Below, one piece after another: positions 2,621-21,782 of a stretch of 64,000 nucleotides of DNA. Numbering within the stretch: position 1 is the first letter of the stretch; each line of letters opens with the position of its first letter. The notes beneath the pieces are model-generated. The model worked only from the letters and a program-made list of their open reading frames with translations, made no database searches and had not been told where the DNA came from. A program made the position numbers and the translations under genes. Source of the DNA: Dehalogenimonas formicexedens (GTDB lineage Bacteria; Chloroflexota; Dehalococcoidia; Dehalococcoidales; Dehalococcoidaceae); assembly GCF_001953175.1 (NCBI RefSeq), contig NZ_CP018258.1, positions 1,640,210 through 1,704,209 of the forward strand, read 5' to 3'.

Positions 2621-3376
2621 GTGACAAACGAGATCTACATTGAAGACCCGAAACTGGAGAGCCTGTACCGGCGCTTCGAGAAGTTGGGCACCCGGCTCAA
2701 GATGCCGGTCTTCAGGGCATACCTTGGGATGGAGGTCCGGGACGGGGAAGGAAACATCATTCATGCCCACCGGCAAAGAAGCCACTCCTGGAACCGGAAC
2801 GCCTACAACTTCCTGTTTTCCCAGATGGCCGCCTACGGTCTAACAGGGACCAATGTATTTGAAGCCGGCGCCATATCCCTCAAGTGGACGAGCGGAAACA
2901 TCTACCCCAATGGTTCCGGCTGGGCTCTGAATCAGGTCGCCGGCTGGGATGAGGGCGTCAACGTAAACACACGGTCAATTGACACCGGACTGCTTGCCAC
3001 CGCCGGTACGGTGAATAAAGGTATCATCGTCGGCACCAACGCTTTTCCCGAATCCTTCGAAGGCTATGTCTTGGGTGCTGAAATCGCCAACGGTTCTAGC
3101 CCCGGCCAGATGGATTACGCCCAGTCAGACCTCCACTCAATGAGCTATGACGCACCCACCAAGACTCTGACCGATACTCTCATCAGGTTCATCAACAACA
3201 ACTCCGGCGCTTCGATCGGTGTCAACGAGGTCGGACTGTATGGCAGGGTCAAATTCAGCTCGGCTGGAACCGGCTCGATCATGTTTTCCCGCGACGTCCT
3301 GGCATCCACGGTTGATGTGCCTAGCACCGGCCAGCTCAAGGTGACCTATACCATCCAGCTCGCCTATCCGGCGTAA
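2621..3376 (+). CDS. Fibre or appendage-type structural protein
   Basis: This 251-residue protein has a GTG start preceded by AAGGAG. An N-terminal charged region (residues 1-40) precedes a long Gly/Asn/Thr/Ser-rich section, and the protein ends in a beta-strand pattern closing with TYTIQLAYPA. A 'DVxxSxVxVPxxGxLxVTYTIxLxYPA' ending is common in phage structural proteins. The next gene is the subtilisin-like protease 9 bases away, so it could be a substrate; that is an inference. Confidence 0.7.
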   Translation: MTNEIYIEDPKLESLYRRFEKLGTRLKMPVFRAYLGMEVRDGEGNIIHAHRQRSHSWNRNAYNFLFSQMAAYGLTGTNVFEAGAISLKWTSGNIYPNGSGWALNQVAGWDEGVNVNTRSIDTGLLATAGTVNKGIIVGTNAFPESFEGYVLGAEIANGSSPGQMDYAQSDLHSMSYDAPTKTLTDTLIRFINNNSGASIGVNEVGLYGRVKFSSAGTGSIMFSRDVLASTVDVPSTGQLKVTYTIQLAYPA

Positions 3377-3385
3377 GGAGGAGAA

Positions 3386-4642
3386 ATGCGCTACGCCCTG
3401 ATTTCCAAGGGTTTATCACTCGACCGTCTCGAGGCTGAGGCGAAGAAGGCTGGCGCCGGGAACATCAGAAAAGCCGAGGTCATCGGCCAGGTCTTCTGCG
3501 AACTCGACCAGGCTCAAGCCGACAGATTGGCCGCTGTCTCCGGCATGGCTCTCAGGCCGCTCAGAGAATATGGTACCAGCCAGATGGCCGCCCAGGCGCC
3601 GGCAGTCGAGAGCATCTCGGATGTCTTCTACCTGCTCAGGAGCTATTTTACCCCGCCGATAACTGGCACCGGCCTCACCGTAGCCGTGCTGGACAGCGGG
3701 GTGAGAAAGACCCACCGGGCGCTCCAGGGCAAAGTGGTTTATGAGGCTAACTTCACCGAGTCCCCGACGTCTGGCGACGTTTTCGGCCACGGCACTCAGG
3801 TGGCCTTCACCGTTGCCGGTGGCTACCACGCGCTGGGCGAAAACTCCGGCGTCTCGCCCGGTGCCGCCATCATGAACATCAAAGTCATCGGCGACGAAGG
3901 CATCGCCTCGGATGAGGCCATCGTGCTAGGGATCGACCGGGTATGCGACCTTGCCGAGCAGGCAAGAACCTCCGGCCTTTTTCCGACCGATGAAATGTAT
4001 CCCAATGTGATAAACCTCTCGCTCGGCGGTGAGGACGACGGCGATCCGGACAATCCGGTTAGGGTCGCCTGCCGGAAGGCGAGTCAAGAATACGGCCTGG
4101 ACGTCATCGCTGCGGCGGGCAACACCGGGCCGAAAATGACAACTGTCATGCTGCCGGCCTGCGAGCCGGAGGTCATCGCCGTGGGGGCGGTTGAGACATT
4201 TGGCGAGCTCCTTGTCTGGGAGAGATCCTCGCGCGGGCCGACCGTTCAGGGCGAGACCAAACCCGATTTCGTCATCTGGGGTACTAGCCTCGAGATGGCC
4301 TCGGACAAAAATGACGAAGACTTCCTGGTGAAATCGGGGACGAGCTTCGCGGCGCCGATGCTGGCTGGCCTGACCGGCCTCCTCTGGGAGAGCGGCCGCA
4401 GGGCTTACGGTGAGGGCTGGCAGTACCGCTGGACCCAGGCGCGAGATGTAGCCCCTTACTTTTCAACCAAGCCGCAGGACGTCCCACTCTCTAAAGACAA
4501 CGCCTACGGATATGGGCTGCCGGCCATGGGCGCCATGCTGGGCCAGGTGATTCAGAGCGCCTCGCCCGCTGCTCAAACTACGGAGATGGTTCAAATGATG
4601 TCGGCCATGATGATGATGGCAGGGGTAATGGGAGCGATGTAA
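3386..4642 (+). CDS. Subtilisin-like serine protease with Met-rich C-terminus
   Basis: This S8 family peptidase (418 residues) shows the full catalytic triad: Asp103 in VAVLDSGV, His135 in GHGTQVA and Ser320 in SGTSFAAP, with the oxyanion Asn in AAAGNTGP around residue 246. Residues 1-60 resemble an I9-type propeptide, and there is no signal peptide, so it would act in the cytoplasm or in the particle. The C-terminus is a hydrophobic, almost all-Met/Ala segment (about residues 401-418) like those of other proteins in this operon. AAGGAGG precedes ATG. A role in maturing element structural proteins is inferred from context. Confidence 0.9.
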   Translation: MRYALISKGLSLDRLEAEAKKAGAGNIRKAEVIGQVFCELDQAQADRLAAVSGMALRPLREYGTSQMAAQAPAVESISDVFYLLRSYFTPPITGTGLTVAVLDSGVRKTHRALQGKVVYEANFTESPTSGDVFGHGTQVAFTVAGGYHALGENSGVSPGAAIMNIKVIGDEGIASDEAIVLGIDRVCDLAEQARTSGLFPTDEMYPNVINLSLGGEDDGDPDNPVRVACRKASQEYGLDVIAAAGNTGPKMTTVMLPACEPEVIAVGAVETFGELLVWERSSRGPTVQGETKPDFVIWGTSLEMASDKNDEDFLVKSGTSFAAPMLAGLTGLLWESGRRAYGEGWQYRWTQARDVAPYFSTKPQDVPLSKDNAYGYGLPAMGAMLGQVIQSASPAAQTTEMVQMMSAMMMMAGVMGAM

Positions 4643-5148: not shown

Positions 5149-5535
5149 ATGGCGCAGTACTCCGACATCATCGCCATCGATGCGCCGTCCGAGGCCGCCT
5201 CGGGAGGCCGGGTGGATTTTACCATTCGGGTGAAAAACACCCACTCGGCGCCGATCGGCATGAAGGTCGAAGCGACGCTTGAATACGGTGTTCCGCCCTG
5301 GCCGAGTGCCATTATCCCGGTGGACTGGGCTAATGTCGACGCCCTAGCAACCTGGCCGTTTCCCGGCTACTTCTACATGCCAGGCCAGAAAGTGACGATT
5401 CATGCCAAAAGCTTCTGGTACGGCGCCGACGGCCAGTGGTATGCCGACGACGAAATGACGAAGACGGTTGATTTCCCCTCGGCCGGGTCGCCCAGTATTT
5501 CGGACTTTCGCATTGTCGATTTCGCTAAAGTATAG
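5149..5535 (+). CDS. Beta-sandwich protein with DFAKV C-terminal motif
   Basis: The ATG directly follows the previous stop. The 128 residues read like an Ig/CARDB-type beta-sandwich (GGRVDFTIRVKNTH, then MPGQKVTIHAKSFWY). The last residues, ISDFRIVDFAKV, recur almost unchanged at the end of the next gene's product (ITEFKISDFAKV), pointing to a shared docking or sorting tag. Tandem with two other beta-sandwich genes (5545, 6157); probably a particle surface protein. Confidence 0.7.
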   Translation: MAQYSDIIAIDAPSEAASGGRVDFTIRVKNTHSAPIGMKVEATLEYGVPPWPSAIIPVDWANVDALATWPFPGYFYMPGQKVTIHAKSFWYGADGQWYADDEMTKTVDFPSAGSPSISDFRIVDFAKV

Positions 5536-5544
5536 GAGGTTACG

Positions 5545-6147
5545 ATGGCTCTCAAGAAACTCGAAATGGAACTTAAACCCTTTACCGCCCTCGGAGAAGG
5601 CGCCGTCGCCCTTGCCGAAGACCCGGTCATGCCGGGGTGGTACGTCGACCCGGCCACCGGCCAGCGCGTCTTCTACGATCCGGTTGCCGGAAAATTCTTC
5701 ACCGCGGCCGGCGGCGTCTATATACCCCTCGGCTACATGAACCCTGCCCCGAAGCAGGTAGCCATCGCCCCCGGCGACCGGCTGATGGTGTCCATTTCAT
5801 TCAAGTACACCGGACCGGCAGTCTCCGGCGTTACCGGTTACTACTGCATCGGGACGAATGGGATGTTTGGCTTCGATGAAAAGCTGGTGCAACTGACGAC
5901 CTTCAGCCTCCCGCAGGTGACTTCCCCGCCGCCGTACCCCAACGTCACCAATTCATTTACATTCACCATCCCGTCGAACGTCGACACCAACTGGGACGAC
6001 ATCTACGTGAAGATCTTCGGCGGTACGCCTTCAATCGGAGGACAAGCGACCACCAATTACATCTTCGGCTACGAGAACGCACTCCTCGTAGCTGGAATCC
6101 AGCCGACCATCACCGAATTCAAGATCTCGGACTTCGCCAAGGTCTAG
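5545..6147 (+). CDS. Beta-sandwich protein, WW-like insert, DFAKV C-terminal motif
   Basis: AGGAGG lies seven bases before ATG. Residues 32-50 contain a Trp/Tyr/Asp-Pro pattern (GWYVDPATGQRVFYDPVAGK) like a short structural-protein repeat; a similar LYLDPVTGNYWVY pattern ends the product at 7311-7511. A beta-sandwich follows, starting APGDRLMVSISFKY, matched in the next protein (NAGDAVRVTVSFKY). The protein ends ITEFKISDFAKV, the tag shared with the previous gene. This suggests duplication and divergence within the operon. Function unknown; 200 residues. Confidence 0.7.
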   Translation: MALKKLEMELKPFTALGEGAVALAEDPVMPGWYVDPATGQRVFYDPVAGKFFTAAGGVYIPLGYMNPAPKQVAIAPGDRLMVSISFKYTGPAVSGVTGYYCIGTNGMFGFDEKLVQLTTFSLPQVTSPPPYPNVTNSFTFTIPSNVDTNWDDIYVKIFGGTPSIGGQATTNYIFGYENALLVAGIQPTITEFKISDFAKV

Positions 6148-6156
6148 GAGAAACCA

Positions 6157-6621
6157 GTGGTACTCGATATCGCCTTTGCGCCGATGGAGCTAGCGCCGAC
6201 CAACTTCAATGCCGGGGACGCCGTACGGGTGACAGTGTCCTTCAAGTACGTTGTCGGCGTGAATAAGACGGTGAAATTACTGGCTGGTCCTTACTCGACC
6301 AACCTTTTCGGCAAGCACCTGGTTAACGCTTGCGTCGGGCAGGCGGAGATAACTCTACCGGCCAGCTCGACGAAGGCCGAAGGTACCGGCGTGGTCGATT
6401 TCTTACTGGTGCCCAAGTCAAGCGGCGGCATCGAAGACGGCACTTACGGCCTCAGGGTTTGGATCGAGGACACTGATGCCGTGGCGGAACAGGACAACGT
6501 CATCATCGTCACCGGCAATTCTTCAAGCGGCGATATGCTTTCCGGAATGATGCCGATGCTCATGATGCTTCTAATGATGGGAATGATCATGCCGATGACC
6601 CAGCAAATGGGCGAGGAGTAG
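6157..6621 (+). CDS. Beta-sandwich protein with extreme Met-rich C-terminus
   Basis: GTG start with AGGAG nine bases upstream. Residues 10-125 form a beta-sandwich related to the two preceding products (shared GD-x(2)-V-x-V-S-F-K-Y). The C-terminus is a hydrophobic segment in which roughly every second residue is Met (GMMPMLMMLLMMGMIMPM), then TQQMGEE. It lacks the DFAKV tag. The Met-rich segment would anchor the domain to a membrane or to other Met-rich proteins of the set; that is an inference. Confidence 0.7.
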   Translation: MVLDIAFAPMELAPTNFNAGDAVRVTVSFKYVVGVNKTVKLLAGPYSTNLFGKHLVNACVGQAEITLPASSTKAEGTGVVDFLLVPKSSGGIEDGTYGLRVWIEDTDAVAEQDNVIIVTGNSSSGDMLSGMMPMLMMLLMMGMIMPMTQQMGEE

Positions 6622-6626
6622 GGATA

Positions 6627-7307
6627 GTGGGCAAGGCGTACCTGGAGATCGAAGAGGTAGCGAAGCTGGAAAGCGCGGCCGAATACCTTCGAGACCGGCT
6701 ACTCATCCGGCTGCTCTTCCACCTCGGCTGCCGGGTGTCCGAGGCGCTGGCGCTCCGGGTCAAGGACATCGACTTCCGCCGCGGCTCGGTGACCATCGAA
6801 CACCTGAAGTCGCGTATCAAGCTATCTTGTCCAGGCTGCGGCGCCAGGCTGGGCAAAGGGCACAAGTTTTGCCCGGTGTGCGGGGACAAGGTGGAGAAGG
6901 CTGTCGCCCAGGAGAAGGAGCATCATCGCTATCGGACCCTGCCGGTCGATGAAGTGACATTGGGCATGCTCAAAGAGTACATCGGCCGCGGCGGCGCCGT
7001 CGAGAGACACAGTGAAAAATGTCTTTTCGACCTCAGGCGCAACCGCGCCTGGCAGATCGTGAAGGACTGCGCCGAGCGCGCCGGTATCCCGCGCCTGGTG
7101 AACGCCGAAAGCGGCAAGACCCACAACGTCAGCCCGCATCGGCTGCGTGATGCCTTCGCCGTCCATGCAGTGAAGGCCGACGATTCCGGCGACGGGCTAA
7201 GGCTGCTACAAGAGCACCTGGGTCATCGGAGCATTGTCACTACCATGAAATACCGCAAGGTGTCGGGTGAGGAACAGAAAGAATGGTATCAGAAGCTCTG
7301 GAGTTAG
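6627..7307 (+). CDS. Short zinc-ribbon tyrosine recombinase, copy 1
   Basis: This 226-residue phage-integrase-family catalytic domain lacks the N-terminal core-binding domain. Catalytic residues visible are Arg36 (GCRVSEA), His171/Arg174 (HRLRDAF), His197/His200 (EHLGH) and Tyr209 (MKYRKV). A four-Cys zinc ribbon (Cys68, 71, 82, 85) is inserted in the beta-hairpin between the Arg motif and the His-x-x-Arg motif. GTG start after GAGGAGTAGGGATA. It lies inside the structural operon rather than at an element end, so it may act on internal sites or be co-expressed late. A close relative is at 35349-36050. No att site was found. Confidence 0.88.
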   Translation: MGKAYLEIEEVAKLESAAEYLRDRLLIRLLFHLGCRVSEALALRVKDIDFRRGSVTIEHLKSRIKLSCPGCGARLGKGHKFCPVCGDKVEKAVAQEKEHHRYRTLPVDEVTLGMLKEYIGRGGAVERHSEKCLFDLRRNRAWQIVKDCAERAGIPRLVNAESGKTHNVSPHRLRDAFAVHAVKADDSGDGLRLLQEHLGHRSIVTTMKYRKVSGEEQKEWYQKLWS

Positions 7308-8447: not shown

Positions 8448-8765
8448 ATGGCATGGAAAAAAGTTACGCTGAAAACTAAAACTGAGGAAGAGCCGATGCT
8501 CCTGGCGGGAGGCTGCAGCCGCTGTTATCAGTGCTGCATTTGCTGGATATACGAGGTGCCCGATGGCAGTGCGGCAATGGCGCCGAGAAAAGGCTGGTGC
8601 CCGCACTTGGATCTTGAGAAGGGAGCTTGCCGGATTTGGGGAGATCGTCCCGAGGGCTGCTGGACCTTTCCGACAGTCAGGGACTTTGAGCTTGGCTGCG
8701 TACCTGAAAGTTGCGGCTTCAAGTTGGTAAAAGGAGGAACCTATGGGCAAATACGCCAATCATGA
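8448..8765 (+). CDS. Cys-rich YkgJ-like metal-binding protein
   Basis: The 105 residues carry a Cys cluster CSRCYQCCICW near residue 25 and five further Cys (WCPHL, ACRIW, GCW, GCV, SCG), the arrangement of the YkgJ family of proposed zinc or iron chelating proteins. The full frame begins MAWKKVTLK, like two neighbouring fibre-type genes. An alternative ATG at 8496 has a better ribosome-binding site (GAGGAAGAG) and would give only the Cys-rich domain. A Cys-rich domain joined to the attachment start of the fibre genes is unusual. Metal binding is family knowledge; its role here is unknown. Confidence 0.65.
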   Translation: MAWKKVTLKTKTEEEPMLLAGGCSRCYQCCICWIYEVPDGSAAMAPRKGWCPHLDLEKGACRIWGDRPEGCWTFPTVRDFELGCVPESCGFKLVKGGTYGQIRQS

Positions 8766-9048
8766 AGAGTTCGGGGTGAACGCCCCGCGGAGCTACCGCG
8801 AGGATACGACCAGCGAGTCTTTTCTCGATGGCATGTCTGGCATCGCGCCGCCGGGTATGAGGCCCAGACGATCACGGGGTGAAAAGTTCGAAGAGAAAAC
8901 CGATTTCAAGACCTCGGCCAGATGGCATCGTAACTTCGACGTGGCCATGTTCGGCGGCTCGGATATCGGGACTACCGATTTCGAGACGAAACAGATGGGA
9001 CTCGAAAGTAAGGCCAACGGTATCAAGAGAATCCCGGGGAGGCGCTAA
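8743..9048 (+). CDS. 101-aa hydrophilic protein of unknown function
   Basis: AAGGAGG precedes the ATG, which overlaps the previous gene by 23 bases. The product is polar, with many Gly/Arg/Lys and no hydrophobic segment (MGKYANHEEFGVNAPRSYRE start, IKRIPGRR end), so it may be disordered or bind another protein or nucleic acid. Its stop overlaps the next start (TAATG), so it is probably co-translated with the DUF192-ArdC gene. No family was recognised. Confidence 0.6.
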   Translation: MGKYANHEEFGVNAPRSYREDTTSESFLDGMSGIAPPGMRPRRSRGEKFEEKTDFKTSARWHRNFDVAMFGGSDIGTTDFETKQMGLESKANGIKRIPGRR

Positions 9049-10523
9049 TGGCTGGCCAAGTACGCCTTACCATCGGAGACAAAGAGTGGCTCGCCGAGGT
9101 GGCGGCCACCCCCTGGGAACTGACGCAAGGCTTGGGCGGATTACCCGCGCTTGAGCCGCGGACCGGGATGCTGTTTGACCTCGGCTCGCCGCGGGTCATC
9201 GAGGTGACCACGGCGCCGATGTTTTTCCCGTTGGATATCGCCTTCCTTTCGGACACCTTCACGGTGACCGAGGTCTACCGCAACGTACCGCCCGGTTACC
9301 TGGTGACCTCGACCTCGCCGGCACGTTACTTTATTGAAGTCAACGCCGGCGATCTGGAAGGCATCGAAGTGGGTGACATAGCCTCTGTAAACTGGCTGGA
9401 CTTGGCGGAGATGCCTGCTGCAACACCGGATTGGGTAACTACTATCGCCTCGCTTGGCGGCTGGCTGGCGGTCGGCGCCGTCATGGTTGGCTTATCACAG
9501 CATCTGGCTGAAACGGTATTCGTTAACCCTGAACCTGAACTCTTACTGGCAACAGGCAGTGCTTCCAGTAAGTGTGAGATCGTCTATCCGCGAAACTACG
9601 ACCTGGTGAGCTGGGTTGGCTCACCGGTACCGGATTACAGCTTCTCCATCGAGCCGGAAGCTAAAGAGCGCCGCATCGACGAGGTCCTTAAGAAGCTAAA
9701 AGAGGGCGTCGAAGGCATCCAGGGGAGCGAGCATTTCCGAAACTTCCTGCTCACCATGTCAAAATTCCATGACTACAGCATCGGCAACCTCATTCTCATT
9801 GCAGCTCAAAAACCCGACGCCACCAGGGTAGGCGGTTTCAATACTTGGAAGGATCTTTATCGCTGGGTGAAGAAAGGCGAGAAGGGCATCGCTATCCTGG
9901 CGCCGTGCCTGCCGTCGAAGTCGGCCAAAATGACTGAACCTGCTGGTGCCGAGGACAAAAAGAAGGAAGGCGAAGAGGAAGAAAAGCGGGAAATGATTCG
10001 CCCGATCTACTTCAAAGTGGTCTATGTCTTCGATGTGAGCCAGACTGAAGGCAAGCCATTACCTGAATTCGAGGTGCCGGTGCTTACCGGTGAAGCGAAC
10101 GAGGAACTCTTCGAGAGCATTCTACATCTTGCTAAAATCCAAGGTGTATTCGTTGGATTTGAACACCGACCGCATCAGGACCCGGCAATTAAGGGCTATT
10201 TTTCCGGCAAGGAAATCTGGGTCAGGCCGGAGGAATCCCGAGCCCAGCAGCTGAAGACGCTGATTCATGAAGTGGCGCACTATTACTCCGAAGGCGTCTT
10301 CCATATTCCCAGAAGAGACGCCGAAACCATCGCCGAGAGCGCCGCTTTTGCCGTTGGAGCCCACTTTGGCTTCGATTCCGGGACACGCTCTTTCCCCTAC
10401 GTCGCCCTCTGGGCGCAGGATAAGAAAGTCCTCGAGCAAAATCTGGCGGCGATTCGCCAGGTAACCACCAGAATCATTGAGGGCCTCGAATCACTGGCGA
10501 AAAAGCTGGCAGGGGTGGCTTGA
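9048..10523 (+). CDS. DUF192-membrane segment-ArdC antirestriction fusion
   Basis: Residues 1-125 match DUF192 (GMLFDLG, APMFFPLDIAFL, SPARYFIEVNAGD, GIEVGD). Residues about 135-160 are one hydrophobic segment. Residues about 205-340 match the ArdC N-terminal ssDNA-binding domain (FRNFLLTMSKFHDYSIGNLI, GGFNTWKDLYRWVKKGEKGI) with an acidic Lys/Glu insertion. The C-terminal third is an ArdC-type zinc peptidase with His407-Glu408-Val-Ala-His411 and a downstream ETIAES, followed by FGFDSGTRSFPY. ArdC proteins protect incoming DNA from restriction; the DUF192 and membrane parts in front are unusual. It may be delivered with the particle; that is an inference. Confidence 0.85.
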   Translation: MAGQVRLTIGDKEWLAEVAATPWELTQGLGGLPALEPRTGMLFDLGSPRVIEVTTAPMFFPLDIAFLSDTFTVTEVYRNVPPGYLVTSTSPARYFIEVNAGDLEGIEVGDIASVNWLDLAEMPAATPDWVTTIASLGGWLAVGAVMVGLSQHLAETVFVNPEPELLLATGSASSKCEIVYPRNYDLVSWVGSPVPDYSFSIEPEAKERRIDEVLKKLKEGVEGIQGSEHFRNFLLTMSKFHDYSIGNLILIAAQKPDATRVGGFNTWKDLYRWVKKGEKGIAILAPCLPSKSAKMTEPAGAEDKKKEGEEEEKREMIRPIYFKVVYVFDVSQTEGKPLPEFEVPVLTGEANEELFESILHLAKIQGVFVGFEHRPHQDPAIKGYFSGKEIWVRPEESRAQQLKTLIHEVAHYYSEGVFHIPRRDAETIAESAAFAVGAHFGFDSGTRSFPYVALWAQDKKVLEQNLAAIRQVTTRIIEGLESLAKKLAGVA

Positions 10524-10532
10524 GGCGTATTT

Positions 10533-11069
10533 ATGGTGATTGAGCTGAGACCGAGCAGGGGTGGCTTTCTCCGGCCGTTTGGCTGCGGCTGGTTTATCCG
10601 GGAGTACCTTTTGGGGAATGGGCCGGAGGGATCAACGAGGATTGATCCTGAACGCGGCGCTCCGCAAGCCGACATCAACTACGAATACAAAGAAGCCCTT
10701 GCCCGGGCTACGGCGCGAGAGCGGGCTGAACGGATCATCAGTAAGCAGGTCGTCCGGAGCGTGGATATCACCGAGGAATACGCCGAAGAGATCTACCAGA
10801 AGCAGCTTAAGAAGGTGTCGCGGAAATTTACCCATATGCGGTATCACTCGTTCCTGATGTACTTCGGAGTGCTCAAGCGGTTAGGGTGGGTTGGGGCCAC
10901 CGATCGGACCGAGCCGTCGGCCATTCAAGACAATTACCCGTCGGCTCCGGAGCGGGTTTATTATCGCCTTACAGCAATAGGAATCACGGCTGATGAGCGA
11001 ATGTGGGCGAATCCTCTTTTCACCTTATATCCCAGAATCGGGCCGAGTCACAGGAAGCAGCATATCTGA
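10533..11069 (+). CDS. FGCGWFIREYL-family winged-helix-like protein, copy 1
   Basis: This 178-residue protein starts MVIELRPSRGGF and contains the invariant FLRPFGCGWFIREYL block (residues 12-26). A charged helical middle follows, then MRYHSF-x-x-YF-x-x-LKRLGWV and a YYRLTAIG ending, which look like a winged-helix DNA-binding domain. A clear paralog at 36028-36525 follows directly after the second zinc-ribbon recombinase, so the two families travel together and may act together in recombination or its control. This copy has an extra C-terminal tail (YPRIGPSHRKQHI). GAGG precedes the start. Confidence 0.75.
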   Translation: MVIELRPSRGGFLRPFGCGWFIREYLLGNGPEGSTRIDPERGAPQADINYEYKEALARATARERAERIISKQVVRSVDITEEYAEEIYQKQLKKVSRKFTHMRYHSFLMYFGVLKRLGWVGATDRTEPSAIQDNYPSAPERVYYRLTAIGITADERMWANPLFTLYPRIGPSHRKQHI

Positions 11070-11300: not shown

Positions 11301-11468
11301 ATGACCGAGAATTCTCAAGTAGAAAAGCATTTGCAGAAACTAGCGGCCTTGGTTAATGACCCTATCCACAAACGCATAATAGAGGCATACAAAGGTAACA
11401 ATCCTCTTGAATCTATGGAAGCTGAGTTAACCAAGATATTGGATGAGGTCGTCACAAATGAAGATTGA
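11301..11468 (+). CDS. 55-aa helical protein coupled to ATPase
   Basis: A good ribosome-binding site (AGGAGG) precedes ATG at 11301. The 55 residues are all helical and acidic at the end (MTENSQVEKHLQKL ... LDEVVTNED). The last 11 bases overlap the likely ATPase start at 11458, which indicates translational coupling. A small partner encoded before an SMC-like ATPase is typical of defence or plasmid-interference modules, but no named system was recognised. The region 11.1-14.2 kb is clearly more AT-rich than the genes before it, so this pair looks like separately acquired cargo. Confidence 0.65.
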   Translation: MTENSQVEKHLQKLAALVNDPIHKRIIEAYKGNNPLESMEAELTKILDEVVTNED

Positions 11469-13938
11469 CACTGTGACAATACGAGGTTTTCGAGGTTTCA
11501 ATGGGGAGAGGCCGATTCACTTTCACCCTTCTCTCACTCTCATTTATGGCCCAAATAGTTATGGCAAGACAAGCATTACTGAGGCGGTGGAATGGTTATT
11601 GTATGGCAGTACATCGAAAGTCGATAAAGGGGAGTCAAAAGATGAATATAAAGGATCATACCGAAACTGTCACCTCGATTGTGGGACGACGACTTTAGTC
11701 AAAGTCCTTTTTATCAAGGATGGACAGTACAGCGAATTCAAAGCCGAGCTATCCGGTGAGGAAGATATCAATAAATATATTGATGGCAAAGCAGTTGAAT
11801 TTTGGCCGATTAAACCTGACATTGGTCCGTCCCCAAAACCTTTTATAATGCAACATGCTTTGAAGTATCTGTTACTGGTGGGACCTGATCAGAGATTCCG
11901 TGGCTTTGCCAAACTACTTGGCTTGGATACGCTAGGGGAAATGCAAACTGAGTTTGTCTCTCTTTGTACAAAACCGGAGTCCTCAATTTCGAAAGCTGCC
12001 GCAATTCTGCGACAGCAAATTAACGCATTGGAAACCCGCCTTGTATTACGACCAAGCCTAAAGAATGTTCATTTGTTCTTTAAAAAGGGCAAAGACTCAT
12101 TTTCAGCGTTCAAAGCTGCAACCATGACGGAGTGCATTAAACGTGTGCCGCCTGGTAGTGCGTCTGATGAAGTATTGCCAGCTTTATTGCGAGCACGAGA
12201 TGAAGCGGTGAAAAAGGTCTTTTCGGGTAGTATAACACTATCAGCCTATACATCTGAAGAAAGTGCGGTTAATTCTACCGAATTTGAGCGCTTTATTAAT
12301 TTTGCATCCGAAGACCTCATCGCGCAATATTGTGGATTGGTCGCCTTAGTAACACGAGACGCCGTTTTAAAACGCGCCGGGTTTTTCAAAGTTGGAATGG
12401 AATTATTAGGTTGCAAGCCGGATGAATGTCCATTTTGTGGGCGGGCGCTTGGCAGCGATTTATTAAATCACATTCAAAGGCAACATCAAGGTCTCAAGGA
12501 TGAAGAAGGAAGGTCAAAAGAATTAGTTACCCAGAGATTAAATCTGATTGAAGTGCTCGCTAGCCTTAAACGTGATCTTGAGAAATGCCAAACGCGTCAT
12601 GGATCTAGAGTGACAACGTTTTTATCCATAAGTAAATCGATGCCCGAACTAGAAAAGATTCTTTCACCTCAGCACATCTCTCTGTACGAGGCTGTCCAAT
12701 CCGCAATAACAGACCTGCAGAAACTAAAGGATGAATTAGAACCGCTCTATCTCAATGTCGGCGACTCTTTAAACAAAGTACAGATGTCTATTCAACAATC
12801 AAAAGAGGATATTAATCTCATAAAAGAACTGGGAAGTGCGCTAATCACGTACGCTAATCATGTTAAATCTATGATTCAATCGATAAATACTTTTGCTCCA
12901 AGAATGTCGGATGCGAATCAAGTTCTTAAACACGAGTTGGATTCGCTTGCTGGTACGGAAGACATTGGCGTCCTTATTGACCTTACTGAACAAGCGGGAA
13001 TGATAAAAAGGGGGTTTGAGATAGAGTCAATTCTCGAAAGCCTTAAAGAATTACGCAAAACGGTTGACCAATACGTCGGTTCAGAAATGCTCGCTGCGAT
13101 AACCACAGAAATGTCTGGAGACGTCATGGACTGGTACAATAACATACGTACGACTGGCGATCCGGACGTTCATTTCTCCGGTTTTGACATGGACCGTACA
13201 AAAAAGGGTGAAATCAAATCTCGCCGAGTACAGATCAAGGCTTCGTCTTATGGTAAAGACCTAGTTAGTGCGGTATCTTCATTGAGTGAGTCCAAGCTTA
13301 ATGCATTAGGTCTCTGCTTAAGCATAGCAACAAACCTAAAAACGGATTGCCCCTTTCAGTTTATTTTCATTGACGATCCAATACAATCATGGGACGAAGA
13401 GCATGGCGTCCAGTTCATTGATGTGGTCAGAAAATTGGTAGAAAAAGGGAAACAAGTTATTGTATTATCGCATAATAAAGCATGGCTAGAGCGGCTACGT
13501 ATTGGCTGCCGCTCATTTAACGGCTTGTATCATGAAATAACAGGTTACACTAAAGACGGCCCCAATATAATTGAGAAACCTTGGTGTACTTGGAAACAAC
13601 GGTTAGACGAAGTTGATGCGATCCTTAAGGACAACACTGCCGACAGCATTAGGCTTCAGCAGGCAGAGGAAGAGATAAGGATTGTCGTATGTGATATAAC
13701 GGCTGGGCTATATTTGAATAAGAAAGGCATTCAGAGAAATCCGAGTACATTCAATTCAGCGATGGTCAGAAAAACACTCATTGAATGTGGTGTGACCATG
13801 GACCTGGTGGACCGTGTAGGTCAGACATTCGAGACTACTGATGATGCTCACCATGCCCCGAAGGATTATGCTGCTCATCGTCAGAGGATTAGATGCTATC
13901 ATAACTGGGCGCATGCGTTAGCCAAGTTATCGGAATAA
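11458..13938 (+). CDS. SMC/Rad50-like AAA ATPase with zinc-finger hinge
   Basis: From ATG 11458 (preferred over 11443 because the product then starts MKIDTVTIRGFRGF) this is an 826-residue ABC-type ATPase. Walker A is GPNSYGKT (residues 31-38), a Walker B is FIFIDDPIQSWDE (about residue 635) with a following switch His in VLSHNK, and two long helical arms flank CPFCGRAL-x(5)-H-x(3)-H (about residue 320), a Cys2His2 site where Rad50 has its zinc hook. The C-terminal 120 residues are a separate helical domain. Such ATPases usually act on DNA ends; in cargo islands they are often defence effectors or sensors. The exact system is unknown. Confidence 0.8.
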   Translation: MKIDTVTIRGFRGFNGERPIHFHPSLTLIYGPNSYGKTSITEAVEWLLYGSTSKVDKGESKDEYKGSYRNCHLDCGTTTLVKVLFIKDGQYSEFKAELSGEEDINKYIDGKAVEFWPIKPDIGPSPKPFIMQHALKYLLLVGPDQRFRGFAKLLGLDTLGEMQTEFVSLCTKPESSISKAAAILRQQINALETRLVLRPSLKNVHLFFKKGKDSFSAFKAATMTECIKRVPPGSASDEVLPALLRARDEAVKKVFSGSITLSAYTSEESAVNSTEFERFINFASEDLIAQYCGLVALVTRDAVLKRAGFFKVGMELLGCKPDECPFCGRALGSDLLNHIQRQHQGLKDEEGRSKELVTQRLNLIEVLASLKRDLEKCQTRHGSRVTTFLSISKSMPELEKILSPQHISLYEAVQSAITDLQKLKDELEPLYLNVGDSLNKVQMSIQQSKEDINLIKELGSALITYANHVKSMIQSINTFAPRMSDANQVLKHELDSLAGTEDIGVLIDLTEQAGMIKRGFEIESILESLKELRKTVDQYVGSEMLAAITTEMSGDVMDWYNNIRTTGDPDVHFSGFDMDRTKKGEIKSRRVQIKASSYGKDLVSAVSSLSESKLNALGLCLSIATNLKTDCPFQFIFIDDPIQSWDEEHGVQFIDVVRKLVEKGKQVIVLSHNKAWLERLRIGCRSFNGLYHEITGYTKDGPNIIEKPWCTWKQRLDEVDAILKDNTADSIRLQQAEEEIRIVVCDITAGLYLNKKGIQRNPSTFNSAMVRKTLIECGVTMDLVDRVGQTFETTDDAHHAPKDYAAHRQRIRCYHNWAHALAKLSE

Positions 13939-14242
13939 CCCTTATTAACTATTTGCGAATTCGACAGTATCGGACGGTAATCAGAAGGATTAATACGAAA
14001 GTCTCGCAACGATATTATTGTATGCTCGGTCGAAAAGTAAGAGCTCCTTCAAAACAGTCTTAGGGAGAAAGAAATAATTAACCTGCCATAAATTGGATTG
14101 CCTCGCAAAATATCCCTGGCCCTCCGAATTCGGGGGGCTTTCTTTTGTTAATTATCAAAAGCCCACAACCCCGTGGGGGGTGATAAACGTGCTATTATGC
14201 AGGTAATGGGTAGCTGGGTGTGTCAGCTAATCTGCTGGAAGA
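13939..14242. other. AT-rich intergenic region between convergent genes
   Basis: No credible gene is visible. The only clear element is a transcription terminator at 14119-14146 for the ATPase. The rest is AT-rich sequence between the convergent ATPase and Fic genes. Confidence 0.5.
14119..14146 (+). terminator. Intrinsic terminator after ATPase gene
   Basis: GCCCTCC and GGGGGGC form a 7-bp stem (one G-T pair) around the loop GAATTC, followed by TTTCTTTT. It lies 180 bases after the ATPase stop and before the convergent Fic gene. Confidence 0.75.
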
Positions 14243-15397
14243 CTACTCGGGAGTAATTTCTCCATCCAAGGCTTTAAGGACTTCATTAGCCGCGTAAGCC
14301 TTGTCACGTTTACGACCGGTAATCTCGGTCAGGATACCAGCTTCCAAGAGCGACTTTATCGCCTTCCTGGCGCCCGGGGATGTTATCTTCAGATACTCTT
14401 GGGCCGTTTTTGCGCTTAATACTGGCTTCATGAGAATAAGTTCCACCAATTGTACGGCCGTCGGCGGTAAATGCTTCTCTCTGGCAAGCTGCGAATAACT
14501 TCGCAGAAGCTCCTGCAGACGCCGTGACCTTGAGACCGCATCCCCGGACTGCTCGGTGACCGCCCTCAAGAAGAACTCTATCCATTCTCGCCATGCGCCT
14601 GTGCTACTTACCTTCAAGAGAAGGTCATAATACTCCTCGCGGTGCTGTTCAAAGAAAGCACTCAGGTAAAGCAGTGGATTGCTGAGAACATTTCTCTGGC
14701 ATAAAAGCAGTGTGACCAAAAGTCGGCCGATACGCCCGTTCCCATCCAGGAACGGATGAATTACCTCAAATTGATAATGAACTAGCGCCGCCTCGACCAG
14801 CGGGGGCAGCCTGGTTTCGGCGTGGAGGAACTTCTCCAGCTGACTAAGGCATTCCTGCATCTCAGGTACCGGCGGAGGCACAAATGTTGCCTCATTGAGG
14901 GTCGCTCCGGGGTTGCCGATCCAGTTCTGCGACTGGCGAAACTCACCAGGAGTAGCGTGCTGGCCACGTACCCCTTCCATCAGGACTCCATGCAATTCGC
15001 GGATAAACCTCAGGCTTAGCGGCAACTCGTTCAGTCGTTTCAGTCCGTACTCCATGGCACGCACATAGTTCTGCACTTCCCTGACGTCACCCCATTTCTC
15101 AACCTGCGTTGCCTCAAACAGCAGGAGGTCAGAGAGCGAGGACTGTGTGCCCTCGATACGCGAAGACAGGACTGCCTCTCTCCTGATGAAAGGGTAGATG
15201 AGAAGGTGTGGATTGGGCAGCGTTTCGCCCAGGCCAGAAAGAGTCCCCAGAGCTATGTCGGCTTTCGACATGACTGATACCAGGGCATCGTCCCACTCAA
15301 GCCTTGGAGGCAAAGGATCGGGGATAAAAGCCCAGTAATCACCGGTTGCCCGGGACAGCTTGCCCGATGGGCTCTTTTTGAACAGCGCGGTGTCCAT
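14243..15397 (-). CDS. Fic family protein, class II autoinhibited
   Basis: This 384-residue protein has the full Fic active-site motif HPFLDGNGRIGR (His214 catalytic), so it should transfer a nucleoside monophosphate (usually AMP) to a target hydroxyl. Before it lies S78-S-R-I-E82-G83, matching the S/T-x-x-x-E-G/N inhibitory helix of class II Fic proteins in which Glu blocks ATP. A Fic/DOC N-terminal domain (DYWAFIPDPLPP, LPNPHLLIYPFIRREAV) and a C-terminal winged helix (about residues 310-380) complete the common layout. GGGAG precedes the ATG. A palindromic operator immediately upstream suggests autoregulation. Confidence 0.92.
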   Translation of the reverse strand: MDTALFKKSPSGKLSRATGDYWAFIPDPLPPRLEWDDALVSVMSKADIALGTLSGLGETLPNPHLLIYPFIRREAVLSSRIEGTQSSLSDLLLFEATQVEKWGDVREVQNYVRAMEYGLKRLNELPLSLRFIRELHGVLMEGVRGQHATPGEFRQSQNWIGNPGATLNEATFVPPPVPEMQECLSQLEKFLHAETRLPPLVEAALVHYQFEVIHPFLDGNGRIGRLLVTLLLCQRNVLSNPLLYLSAFFEQHREEYYDLLLKVSSTGAWREWIEFFLRAVTEQSGDAVSRSRRLQELLRSYSQLAREKHLPPTAVQLVELILMKPVLSAKTAQEYLKITSPGARKAIKSLLEAGILTEITGRKRDKAYAANEVLKALDGEITPE

Positions 15398-16596: not shown

Positions 16597-16660
16597 CCGA
16601 TAGCTTACTACTAGGCGAAGCCGATGGAGTTGCCCACCTATCGGATAGCAAGAGGGGGTC
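16561..16660 (+). promoter_or_regulatory. Conserved two-hairpin RNA leader of clamp gene, copy 1
   Basis: Hairpin A pairs 16570-16577 with 16593-16600 (8 bp) around the 15-base loop GCCAGCGAATTGCGG. Hairpin B pairs CCGATGG (16621-16627) with CCTATCGG (ending 16644). A ribosome-binding site AGAGGGGG follows at 16651-16658. The equivalent leader of the second clamp gene (37511-37609) keeps the loop and both stems although the stem bases differ in a compensatory way. GTGGG (16561-16565) could also pair with CCCAC (16633-16637). This is an RNA-structure prediction by eye; overlap with the sigma-gene 3' end is 36 bases. Confidence 0.7.
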
Positions 16661-17976
16661 GGACAATCGAACAACTGAATATTGAGGGCAAGCGTTCAGG
16701 TCAGGGCTTTTTAGCGCACAAGGCTGTACTGGTCAACGCCTTATCAAGGACACTCGCCGAAAGGGCGATGCTTCTTGACCTCACCATTGGGCGGAAAGGC
16801 TTTCTTACTTACCTCAAGTCTTTAGGCGGGTCGAACATCGTGAAAATCGTCCCGTCTAACGGCGATGCCAGCGTATCGCGGGTCGCCGGAAAATGCCTTA
16901 AGGTGGTCTGCGGAGCCAACACCAGCTACCTTGACAACATGGCCTGGGTCGGCGAAAAAACACCCCTTACCCTGTGCGACATCAGGGTAAGCCCGTCATA
17001 CTCGGTAAGTCCCAACCTCGGCGCGACAGAGCTATCGGAAGCCCTTTCAAGGGTACTGCCGTTTACCTCGGATGAGAACACCCGCCCCGTACTTCAATGC
17101 GTTCTCTTCCGGGTCAAGGACGGCAAGCTAACCCTCGTTAGCGCCGACGGCTACCGACTCGCCGTACTCAAACTGGACTTCGACGGGGATGAAGGACAAG
17201 CTCTCGTTAGTCGCGATGAGCTAAAGGGCGTCACCGCCGCTCTTCGACGGGCGCGACGGGTAAGGCTGTCACTTGAAAAGAGGAAAGACAGCGAGGGGAT
17301 GGACCTCAATCTGGACACGGAGCTAATCCGCTATGGATGGCGGGGATGCGCCGGTAACTTTCCAGACTATGAGAAGCTCATACCCGCCGACTTTAGCGCC
17401 CGCGCCAGCTTCGACACCAATGAGGCGCTCAAGGCGGTAAGCTCACTCAAGGTCATTGCCAACGTCAAAGCCTACGCCATAGACCTCACCATCGGCAACG
17501 GCAAGGTGGTCATGGCAAACACCGACGACAAGGGCGAGGCCGAGATACCCGCCGACACTACCGGCGAGCCTATCAAGATAAGGCTTGACGGGGGTTATCT
17601 CGCCGAAGCTCTGAGGGCTTGCGGCGGGATGGTGGAGCTAAAACTCGTTGACGCGAAGTCACCGATGCTTTTTGCCGCGCCGGACTATGAGCTGGTGGTC
17701 ATGCCGATGCTTCTGCCGGAAGCCAAGAAGCCGAAGGTCGAAGCCAAGGCCGCCGAGACTCCCCACGAAAGCGGGGACAAGACAGAAGCGAGCCAACCCG
17801 CCGAACCCGCCGAACCGAAGGTTGAGATAGTCGAAGCGGTCGCCGAGCCGGATGCCGAGCCGGTCGCCGCCGAGGAAGTCGCCCAAGCTGTCGCCGAGGC
17901 CGAGGCCATCACGAAGGCCGAGAAGCCCAAGACCAAGAAGCATAGCAAGGCGAAAGAACCAGTCGCCGTTGCCTAA
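16624..17976 (+). CDS. DNA polymerase III beta clamp-like protein, copy 1
   Basis: The last two thirds match DnaN domains 2 and 3: TRPVLQCVLFRVKDGKLTLV-S-A-D-G-Y-RLA, GNFPDYEKLIP and a final YELVVMPM. The first 110 residues are divergent from DnaN domain 1 but conserved with copy 2 (LTIGRKGFLTYLKSLGGSN, GKCLKVVCGANT). A tail of about 85 residues is rich in Ala/Glu/Pro/Lys. ATG 16624 lies inside a conserved RNA hairpin and its frame is closed in copy 2, so translation probably starts at ATC 16666 or CTG 16675 after AGAGGGGG. A clamp gives the element its own processivity factor or recruits the host polymerase; that is an inference. Confidence 0.85.
   Translation: MELPTYRIARGGRTIEQLNIEGKRSGQGFLAHKAVLVNALSRTLAERAMLLDLTIGRKGFLTYLKSLGGSNIVKIVPSNGDASVSRVAGKCLKVVCGANTSYLDNMAWVGEKTPLTLCDIRVSPSYSVSPNLGATELSEALSRVLPFTSDENTRPVLQCVLFRVKDGKLTLVSADGYRLAVLKLDFDGDEGQALVSRDELKGVTAALRRARRVRLSLEKRKDSEGMDLNLDTELIRYGWRGCAGNFPDYEKLIPADFSARASFDTNEALKAVSSLKVIANVKAYAIDLTIGNGKVVMANTDDKGEAEIPADTTGEPIKIRLDGGYLAEALRACGGMVELKLVDAKSPMLFAAPDYELVVMPMLLPEAKKPKVEAKAAETPHESGDKTEASQPAEPAEPKVEIVEAVAEPDAEPVAAEEVAQAVAEAEAITKAEKPKTKKHSKAKEPVAVA
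16687..16701 (+). repeat. 15-bp inverted repeat, right arm, module 1
   Basis: GGCAAGCGTTCAGGT is the exact reverse complement of 15732-15746. It lies in the first codons of the clamp gene (encoding GKRSG) and is kept base for base in the second module at 37637-37651, although neighbouring third codon positions differ. Confidence 0.8.
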
Positions 17977-18362: not shown

Positions 18363-18451
18363 GGCCGCCCAGGGCGTAGAGAAGGGGTCGAGAAGCATGA
18401 AGTACCGACCCCTTACTCTTGCCCGAAGACGATGGAAAGGAGGTGATAAAT

Positions 18452-18754
18452 ATGGATGCGCTGCTGGTAACCAATCCCACTGTCCCGCTAGGCCAGGTGG
18501 TGGCCACCCGGGGAGTGTATGCCTTGGCCGGAGAAAACCCCAAGTTCGCTGAGTTCATGCCCCGCTGCCTGAACCGCCACGCCAAAGGCGATTGGGGCGA
18601 CCTCGATGAGGCAGACAACCAAGAGAACGAGCTGAGCCTGGAGCAAGGCTTCAGACTGCTCTCGTCTTATGAGAGCGAGGGCTTACCTAAGATTTGGATC
18701 ATCACCGAAGCCGACCGGTCATCAACGACAATTCTTTTCCCCGATGAGTACTGA
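18452..18754 (+). CDS. Plasmid/ICE-type small protein of unknown function
   Basis: ATG 18452 has AAGGAGG eight bases upstream; the longer frame from 18419 lacks a site. The 100 residues match a family common on plasmids and integrative elements: VPLGQVVATRGVYAL, RHAKGDWGDLDEADNQEN, GFRLLSSYES and a closing IWIITEADRSSTTILFPDEY. Members have no established function. Its presence supports the mobile nature of this region. Confidence 0.8.
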   Translation: MDALLVTNPTVPLGQVVATRGVYALAGENPKFAEFMPRCLNRHAKGDWGDLDEADNQENELSLEQGFRLLSSYESEGLPKIWIITEADRSSTTILFPDEY

Positions 18755-18835
18755 CTCAAGAACCTGTGTGCCAGTTAGGTGTTATCAAAGCAGGCAAATA
18801 CGAAGGGGTAACAATGCCCGAATAGAGGTGAAACT

Positions 18836-19132
18836 ATGCCTATCAAATGGAGTGCCCTTAAGGTAAGTGAAGCAATGGACATGGTCGAGGAGTTCATTGA
18901 CCAGGCCGCCGAACCGCTGGAACAGGCCAGGATTGTAGCAATTGCAGCAAGAGGAATAGACGACATCCCACAATACGTCGACGAGCGCCTTGCACATCTC
19001 ATCGGCGATATTGGGCGTATTGACCATATCAAGGGCTCTATTTCGGAAGTCCGAAAATCCTTACCTATCGGCGCCGCGGCGGAAGAGCAGAAGAGAATCG
19101 AAAGCGGCAACCAGCTCGTCCTGGTGGCCTAA
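18836..19132 (+). CDS. 98-aa helical protein of unknown function
   Basis: A gAGGTG site precedes the ATG. The protein is predicted helical and acidic (VSEAMDMVEEFIDQAAEPLEQARIVAI), with a slightly hydrophobic end QLVLVA. It follows the plasmid-type gene by 81 bases on the same strand. No family was recognised. Confidence 0.6.
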   Translation: MPIKWSALKVSEAMDMVEEFIDQAAEPLEQARIVAIAARGIDDIPQYVDERLAHLIGDIGRIDHIKGSISEVRKSLPIGAAAEEQKRIESGNQLVLVA

Positions 19133-19198
19133 ACCAATAACCACTACCAAATTCAAAGGGATACCCATGCCCAATACTGAACGGAAGGAGTAACAAGC

Positions 19199-19672
19199 AT
19201 GGCAGGTCAACTCGATCTGTTTCAGGGCGTTAAGCTGGCGGAGCCGGTGCCGAAAACCACGGTCAGACTTGGCCGGAAAGCCGCCCAGATACCGCTACGG
19301 AAGAAGCAGCGGGTAGCCGCAAAGCGTCTCATGGAAATACTTAAAGAACTGGAGGGTAAGGACATTTACCTTGGCTCCTACAGTGCCGGCGGCGGCCATT
19401 TCTGGCTCGATAATCTGAAGCTATCTAAGCTTAGAGTCGATGGGTTCAGGACGGAATCTGATGTATCCTGCCCGCCATCGGTCATCGTTTTGTGGGGGAG
19501 TAAAGGGGCCTGCGTCAGGATATTCACGGACTGCTTGTTAGCAGTCCGTGAACAAGAGTATCAGAATTACCATCACTATCTCCTCGACTTTTGGAACGGC
19601 TTTGGCCAATGCCCGATAAACGGTTACAGATCACACTACGCATGTTTGGCTGTCACCAAGTTCAAGGGCTGA
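19199..19672 (+). CDS. 157-aa unknown element protein
   Basis: GGAAGGAG lies 9 bases before ATG. The start MAGQLDLFQGVKL resembles short clamp-binding peptides (Q-L-x-L-F), which is notable because the element encodes its own clamp; that link is only a suggestion. Residues 20-50 are basic (RLGRKAAQIPLRKKQRVAAKRL), and the rest is mixed with several Cys/Tyr/Trp. It ends the last visible operon of element 1 and is followed by a terminator. No family recognised. Confidence 0.6.
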   Translation: MAGQLDLFQGVKLAEPVPKTTVRLGRKAAQIPLRKKQRVAAKRLMEILKELEGKDIYLGSYSAGGGHFWLDNLKLSKLRVDGFRTESDVSCPPSVIVLWGSKGACVRIFTDCLLAVREQEYQNYHHYLLDFWNGFGQCPINGYRSHYACLAVTKFKG

Positions 19673-20876: not shown

Positions 20877-21737
20877 TTAACTCTTTGCCCAGATAGACTT
20901 AAGAGTAACCCATTGTTCGGGACAATGTCTAATATACCTTTCCATGACCTGAGCTATTTGCTCTACGTTTTTTACTACCGCGCCGTTTCCAGTGGTGAAA
21001 ACATCGATGGCTGGTTCTACATATATAACATATTTACCATTATCTTCGCGTCGATTAAAGATGGGGACAATAGCCGCTCCGGTGCGCATGGCCATTCTGA
21101 CAGCTACCGTGGGCAGAGTAGCCTCCTCACCAAAGAAGACCGATGTTATGCCTTTCCCTTTGATGTTACGGTCGCAAGCCATCAATATTGCTTCACCGCT
21201 TCGCAGTAGCTGCATCATTGATTCCAGCGCACCCGGTCGGCCTGGCATGAAAGCGACGCCATGGCTCTCTCTCAAGGCAGTAACATGATTAAGCAGAGGC
21301 GGCGGTTTCAAAGCCTCTACCAAGACTGTTGTTTTGACCGATCGAATGGCAAATATCTGTGCCGCGATATCAAAACTGCCCAGGTGAGCCGTGACCAACA
21401 CAACACCCCACTTCCGCTCTAGAGCATCTTTAAGATGTTGCCAGCCATGGACAGTTAAATGGCGCTCGATTTCATCAAGTTCCATGTGCGGTAACTTTAT
21501 AAGGTCAAAATAGTTTTTGGCTGTATTCTTTAGTACTTCGCGCACAGCCCTTCTTAGGACAATATCATCTACGTTAAACCCCAGGACATGCCTCATATTG
21601 TCAGCAACTCCAACCCTCGCTGTAGGGAAGAAGGTGTAAGCGAAATCTGCGACTAGACTCGCGACAAAGTAGCCAAGGTTTCTAGGTAAGTAGGACAGAC
21701 TGAATCCTGCAATCTTAAACGCATAATATTTCCACAT
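20877..21737 (-). CDS. Lauroyl/myristoyl-type lysophospholipid acyltransferase
   Basis: This 286-residue product belongs to the LpxL/HtrB-like acyltransferases. It has an N-terminal hydrophobic helix, the catalytic HxxxxD as HLGSFD, an 'R-x-G-G-A-x-x-x-M' type segment (GRPGALESMMQLLRSG), and an MACDRNIKG-K-G-I-x-S-V-F-F-G-E-E motif. In Gram-positive-type bacteria such enzymes acylate glycolipids. ATG 21737 with GAGAGG upstream is preferred to TTG 21779. It is divergent from the Tat genes; the intergenic region contains promoter A. Confidence 0.85.
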   Translation of the reverse strand: MWKYYAFKIAGFSLSYLPRNLGYFVASLVADFAYTFFPTARVGVADNMRHVLGFNVDDIVLRRAVREVLKNTAKNYFDLIKLPHMELDEIERHLTVHGWQHLKDALERKWGVVLVTAHLGSFDIAAQIFAIRSVKTTVLVEALKPPPLLNHVTALRESHGVAFMPGRPGALESMMQLLRSGEAILMACDRNIKGKGITSVFFGEEATLPTVAVRMAMRTGAAIVPIFNRREDNGKYVIYVEPAIDVFTTGNGAVVKNVEQIAQVMERYIRHCPEQWVTLKSIWAKS

Positions 21738-21782
21738 TTGGTCATCCCTCTCTGTGGCATAACTGTTAGCGTCGGTCAAAAC

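Follow-up and report, generated by a model that had tools for sequence, protein, structure and literature searches.

We identified a protein in which a DUF192 domain, a single membrane helix and both parts of an ArdC-type protein are joined in one chain of 491 residues. This protein is real and conserved, it is related to ArdC and to polyvalent proteins, and the best reading of it is as a short, membrane-tethered relative of the latter. Its gene lies on the forward strand at positions 9048 to 10523 of the window, by which we mean the whole 64,000-nucleotide stretch analysed here (Dehalogenimonas formicexedens, contig NZ_CP018258.1, positions 1,640,210 to 1,704,209).

The open reading frame runs uninterrupted in one frame from an ATG at 9048 to a stop codon that ends at 10523, and its start codon shares bases with the stop codon of the gene before it (TAATG). 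The first of its domains, DUF192 (residues 16-110, 9093 to 9377, forward strand), has both the Pfam match (PF02643, E 1.1e-16) and the fold of that family, with the model matching 3pjy (Z 17.2) and 3m7a (Z 15.9). It is followed by a hydrophobic stretch that hydropathy places near residues 130-148 and the structure model renders as a helix over residues 130-155 (9435 to 9512, forward strand). The ArdC-N single-stranded-DNA-binding domain (residues 205-328, 9660 to 10031, forward strand) matches PF08401 (ArdcN) above the cut-off, with an E-value of 1.7e-16. The zincin metallopeptidase-like domain that ends the chain (residues 340-491, 10065 to 10520, forward strand) was recognized by its motifs and a fold match, its sequence giving only a weak Pfam match, to M78. 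It contains HEVAH at residues 407-411 (10266-10280) and a conserved glutamate helix, DAETIAES (10317-10340), with an ExxA at residues 426-429 that presumably holds the metal-binding glutamate; both motifs are near-invariant. The features of the ArdC family, namely an ArdC-N domain and a C-terminal zincin with HExxH and glutamate helix, are both present, and the model matches the ArdC crystal structure 6sna with a Z of 10.6 over 136 residues. The full-length model is poor (mean pLDDT 55, with ArdC-N below 50), so its usable parts are DUF192 and the zincin only. Reading frame, Pfam, hydropathy and model agree with the sequence-only reading, which had described one 491-residue protein with DUF192, a membrane-type helix, both ArdC parts and an intact HExxH. 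Binding of single-stranded DNA and antirestriction are putative activities of the ArdC half.

The same domain order recurs elsewhere. The complete genome (2.09 Mb) contains three fusion copies, at 1649257, 1868939 and 255148, and the two outside the window are 77% identical to the window fusion. Altogether, no fewer than 15 loci across the order carry the fusion, among them loci in four other genomes of the genus, a sister genus (presumably Dehalococcoides), several MAGs and one IMG/VR record; the related loci come mostly from Dehalococcoidia and Dehalococcoidales. This genome and one relative share a 12-kb stretch at 100% identity, so some copies have been shared recently. Wherever dN/dS could be computed for a domain and pair, it was between 0.02 and 0.30, with the highest value (0.30) in the linker, which indicates that all parts of the fusion, the junction included, are under purifying selection. 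The chance that a sequencing or assembly error fused two genes is negligible, because the fusion is repeated in three copies of the same genome and in independent genomes and MAGs, purifying selection spans the junction, and nothing was found in favour of such an error. Separate genes for the two halves, which the sequence-only reading would have taken as a sign of error had they occurred in close relatives, occur in distant relatives only. Among the phage and plasmid records searched for the full fusion, no record covers 80% of it, and a literature search for DUF192 together with ArdC found no paper.

In the distant relatives, DUF192 and ArdC are encoded by separate genes, both of whose products have a membrane stretch, and another HExxH gene lies between the two. 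For example, locus L043 (Dehalococcoidia UBA5629) has a 215-aa DUF192-membrane protein, then a 195-aa HExxH protein (HELAHH), and a separate 486-aa ArdC protein with a weaker N-terminal hydrophobic stretch of its own. In genome G047, where the arrangement was pieced together from two contigs (L076 and L035) overlapping by about 335 bases, the DUF192-membrane part is joined to another C-terminal part and is followed by a 523-aa HExxH protein and then by a membrane-helix ArdC protein. Two other loci, L042 and L046, both on short contigs, have a membrane-helix ArdC without DUF192. In a tree of the ArdC domains, one change between fused and unfused suffices (support 72/59), a weakly supported fit to a single fusion origin; the tree row L035, labelled 'no DUF192', is the split case of G047, whose DUF192 is on the overlapping contig. 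Given the split forms and the tree, the likeliest origin of the fusion is that two membrane proteins encoded near each other became merged through a single common helix and the gene between them was lost. The split and fused forms together show how such an anchor became joined to ArdC. Close relatives of the ArdC part within Dehalococcoidia, in L050 and L077, are long polyvalent proteins that combine ddrB-ParB and ArdC-N in one chain, with RadC in one of them.

The fusion gene is the penultimate gene in a run of 21 genes on the same strand, within an element of about 34 kb, whose gene set includes a serine recombinase, a directionality factor, a primase-like protein, a sliding clamp and a variable cargo slot. 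Elements of this family occur in up to three copies per genome. At the left end, the serine recombinase overlaps a tRNA-Glu gene and is followed by an M78 peptidase and an HTH protein, then by a Gp3-like directionality factor, a DUF3854 protein, DnaJ, an AAA ATPase, a C2H2 protein and a UvrD helicase. The left end was read in five copies, and in every one the recombinase frame overlaps a tRNA gene, each time a different one (Glu, L022:1400-1476; Ala, L072:3746-3821; Ile, L073:1819-1895; Asn, L074:4541-4615; Val, L075:2784-2859). After the helicase come two tandem Met-rich membrane proteins of 67 and 64 aa (L022:14554-14757 and L022:14794-14988), about 650 and 410 bases to the left of the window start. 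Of their last 32 residues, which include a membrane stretch, 12 and 14 are methionines. Both proteins are 74-98% conserved in the copies read; one of the two was scanned and gave no family match.

The block that leads up to the fusion gene lies within the window, all on the forward strand, and several of its proteins have an N-terminal domain followed by a C-terminal helix. It includes a membrane protein with a K-rich C-terminal tail (415 to 915), a protein with an N-terminal domain, C-terminal membrane helix and K-rich tail (1070 to 1636), a fibre-like protein whose model matches viral fibre-type proteins (2621 to 3376), and a subtilase of the S8 family (3386 to 4642; PF00082, E 1.3e-34). Three conserved small genes follow (5149 to 6621), and the product of the third (6157-6621) has a Met-rich membrane helix at its end. 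The first two (5149-5535 and 5545-6147) have a common C-terminal ending (SDFRIVDFAKV and TEFKISDFAKV), and other proteins, at L043:6345-6992, L044:1328-3280 and L035:1-1125, have a common C-terminal DIGYRDKLD-like motif; these endings are possibly sorting tags. Inside this structural-like run, positions 6627 to 7307 encode the catalytic domain of a tyrosine recombinase into which a zinc ribbon is inserted. Its copies in the genus and the sister genus are 75-100% identical; in L023, L026 and L030 a second, more distant copy or fragment of it comes after the fusion gene. Directly upstream of the fusion gene is a conserved 101-aa gene (8743 to 9048) with a stop/start overlap, and after it comes a conserved 178-aa gene (10533 to 11069), which in most copies, and in most relatives, adjoins the ArdC gene.

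About 400 bp downstream of the fusion gene is the variable cargo slot (11443 to 15397), which in the window contains an SMC/LmuB-like ATPase (11443-13938, forward strand) and a Fic protein (14243-15397, reverse strand). We compared the slot in the window, L024, L025, L027, L031 and L032: its content differs between copies while the fusion gene is constant, and other copies have SIR2, TIR-Dsr1, P-type ATPase, MBL-fold or HEAT proteins. Genes of defence type (SMC/LmuB-like, SIR2, TIR-Dsr1) are often present. Next to the slot is a homologue of the DNA polymerase III beta clamp (16624 to 17976, forward strand).

The sequence-only reading had placed the gene at the end of a late, structural operon. 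Its position holds, since only the 178-aa gene follows it in the run, and the 2621-3376 protein does resemble viral fibre-type proteins. The structural label is supported only in part, because the genome yielded no portal, terminase, HK97 capsid or T4SS coupling protein. Specifically, the block proteins tested against PHROG gave no virion-family match, and the whole genome, with its three element copies, gave no match to the portal (PF04860), TerL (PF03354), HK97 capsid (PF05065) or T4SS coupling protein (T4SS-DNA_transf, PF02534) families, these four families being the extent of that search. With no match to the first three families, we rejected an ordinary tailed-phage late operon or Caudoviricetes provirus; with none to the fourth, we rejected a conjugative element, the one strong HerA-type match lying far from the three copies. 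A portal is present in the IMG/VR record that contains one element copy, but it lies about 50 kb from that copy.

The evidence for a fibre-like protein is suggestive, not proof. The 2621-3376 protein, the sole block protein modelled for fold matching, was modelled from 17 sequences with a pLDDT of 77. Compared with BFVD using Foldseek, the model matched viral proteins, including tail fibres and proteins of filamentous archaeal viruses, at E-values of 5e-8 to 1e-4 and a TM score of about 0.4. Against the PDB, Foldseek gave nothing under E 0.001; in a second PDB comparison the best two rows were viral tail or fibre proteins with Z of 7.0 and 5.4, and a Z of 7.0 is within the range that the tool calls common.

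The orientation of the fusion in the membrane can be predicted from charge. In each of the 17 DUF192-membrane proteins examined, the 15 residues that precede the helix contain no K or R and the 30 that follow it contain one to seven, which by the positive-inside rule would put DUF192 outside and ArdC inside. The signal is weak in the window protein, with one K after the helix and a net charge of -3 on both sides. A hydropathy scan showed no N-terminal signal sequence in the fusion, so an outward DUF192 would need N-tail translocation. DUF192/COG1430 proteins such as those of PDB entries 3pjy and 3m7a, whose fold is that of the N-terminal part of the fusion, are usually small, stand-alone and often exported, whereas here the domain is N-terminal in a fusion with no visible signal peptide. 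A haloarchaeal DUF192 protein, from Haloferax, is a Sec-processed glycoprotein (PMC8241124).

The role that we favour, tentatively and short of calling it probable, is that of a shield carried in the membrane of the element's particle. The fusion, encoded by an integrated, virus-like element associated with a tRNA gene, would cross the membrane once, with the DUF192-membrane half as an outward-facing anchor and the ArdC half on the inner side, where it could bind the element's single-stranded DNA. On entry the ArdC domain would already be beside the incoming DNA and would shield it against restriction and other nucleases; it may then be released through cleavage by its own zincin domain. Presence in particles, shielding and self-cleavage are inferred. 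The reading as a whole draws on several lines of evidence: the fusion is kept in 15 or more loci, with a tree that fits a single origin under weak support, its domains are under purifying selection, the charge pattern around the helix predicts DUF192 outside and ArdC inside, polyvalent proteins are among the close relatives of the ArdC half, split relatives have the two halves as separate nearby proteins, the block holds proteins with an N-terminal domain and C-terminal helix, Met-rich peptides and a fibre-like protein, and portal, TerL, HK97 capsid and T4SS coupling protein were not found in the genome. Against this reading count the failure to find a particle, capsid or packaging enzyme, the modest fibre match, the weak charge signal, the missing signal sequence and the expression of R388 ArdC in the recipient.

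This last point leads to the explanation that ranks next, which we consider unlikely: the protein may be made in the newly infected or donor cell and not borne by a particle, with a membrane-tethered ArdC shielding DNA that crosses or replicates at the membrane. The ArdC of plasmid R388 is needed in the recipient and not in the donor, and its protease activity is dispensable (PMC7213743); even an antirestriction function would thus not require injection. The absence of recognized virion or conjugation machinery from the element fits as well. On the other hand, the gene stands at the end of an extended run that also contains fibre-like and membrane genes, at a distance from the replication genes, and an outward DUF192 has no obvious use in a purely internal shield.

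Less likely still is that the fusion guards the resident element or the host cell, as part of a defence or exclusion kit at the lysogen surface. The defence-type genes found in the nearby slot in several copies and the predicted outside location of DUF192 are in its favour, but the fusion gene stays constant while the slot varies, and ArdC is known for shielding incoming DNA.

A protease role is the least probable of the roles considered. Virion maturation peptidases mature particle proteins, and the zincin might do the same, with ArdC-N and DUF192 as docking parts. The near-invariant HEVAH and glutamate helix, the second HExxH gene of the split forms and the subtilase in the operon would all suit this, but a role as protease alone leaves the similar conservation of ArdC-N (dN/dS 0.02-0.13) unaccounted for.

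Known systems share parts of this arrangement. The ArdC proteins of plasmids R388 and pSa (PDB 6sna, 6i89) have the same order of ArdC-N and zincin, and their HExxH and glutamate helix are kept here; R388 ArdC as described has two domains only (PMC7213743), whereas here DUF192 and a membrane helix precede them and the host element has no recognized conjugation genes. In polyvalent proteins, ArdC-N and the zincin (MPTase) are more frequent than any other domain and are often found in combination (Iyer et al. 2017, PMC5512222); such proteins have been proposed to enter with the DNA (PMC5512222). The fusion has in common with them ArdC-N and MPTase on a mobile element and disparate activities in one chain, here DUF192, ArdC-N and zincin on a tRNA-overlapping element; their known carriers, terminase-portal phages or T4SS elements (PMC5512222), have no counterpart here among the families tried. 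In the main text of PMC5512222, the terms DUF192, COG1430 and transmembrane gave no match. The Dehalococcoides ssrA genomic islands, found in the same bacterial family, are also serine-recombinase elements that insert at an RNA gene (PMC3146451), but they target ssrA and carry ParB/Mom-type modules (PMC3146451), whereas here the targets are different tRNA genes and the gene set is another; we rejected such an island on these grounds.

It is possible, rather than likely, that the element represents a family of portal-less, membrane-bearing Dehalococcoidia proviruses, vesicle- or filament-like, with the tandem Met-rich peptides as main membrane proteins and the fusion as a polyvalent-type protein tethered in the particle membrane, DUF192 outward and ArdC inward on the DNA. 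Dehalococcoidia bacteria lack peptidoglycan, which would make budding plausible. DUF192, widespread yet unexplained, gains a concrete setting as the predicted outward half of an anchor for a DNA-protecting domain. If the fusion is in particles, DNA protection at entry would extend to membrane-bearing elements without portal or conjugation machinery. Up to now, the phages that use polyvalent proteins have been assigned to the terminase-portal class, which has no internal membrane (PMC5512222), whereas the portal, TerL and capsid families tried gave no match here. The element's hosts are most likely organohalide-respiring bacteria, and the family, with its defence genes, is a candidate gene-transfer vehicle in bacteria used for bioremediation.

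The right-hand conserved part of the element covers 18444 to 19672 (forward strand), and DNA homology with another element copy ends near 19130. No tRNA repeat of at least 13 bases was found at the right side, where 12-base inverted matches look like chance, and the corresponding site in genome G004 is rearranged. Scans found 14 promoter sites against 9.1 in shuffles and 26 terminators against 18.0, with no clear operon end, and no RNA families were found in window 1-24000. A search of viral contigs with the Xer-like protein gave no further element copy in the three records that were mapped or scored closest. Just to the right of the element, a lipid A acyltransferase-like gene (window 20877-21779) is 100% identical to one in another genome (G003), so it was probably transferred recently.
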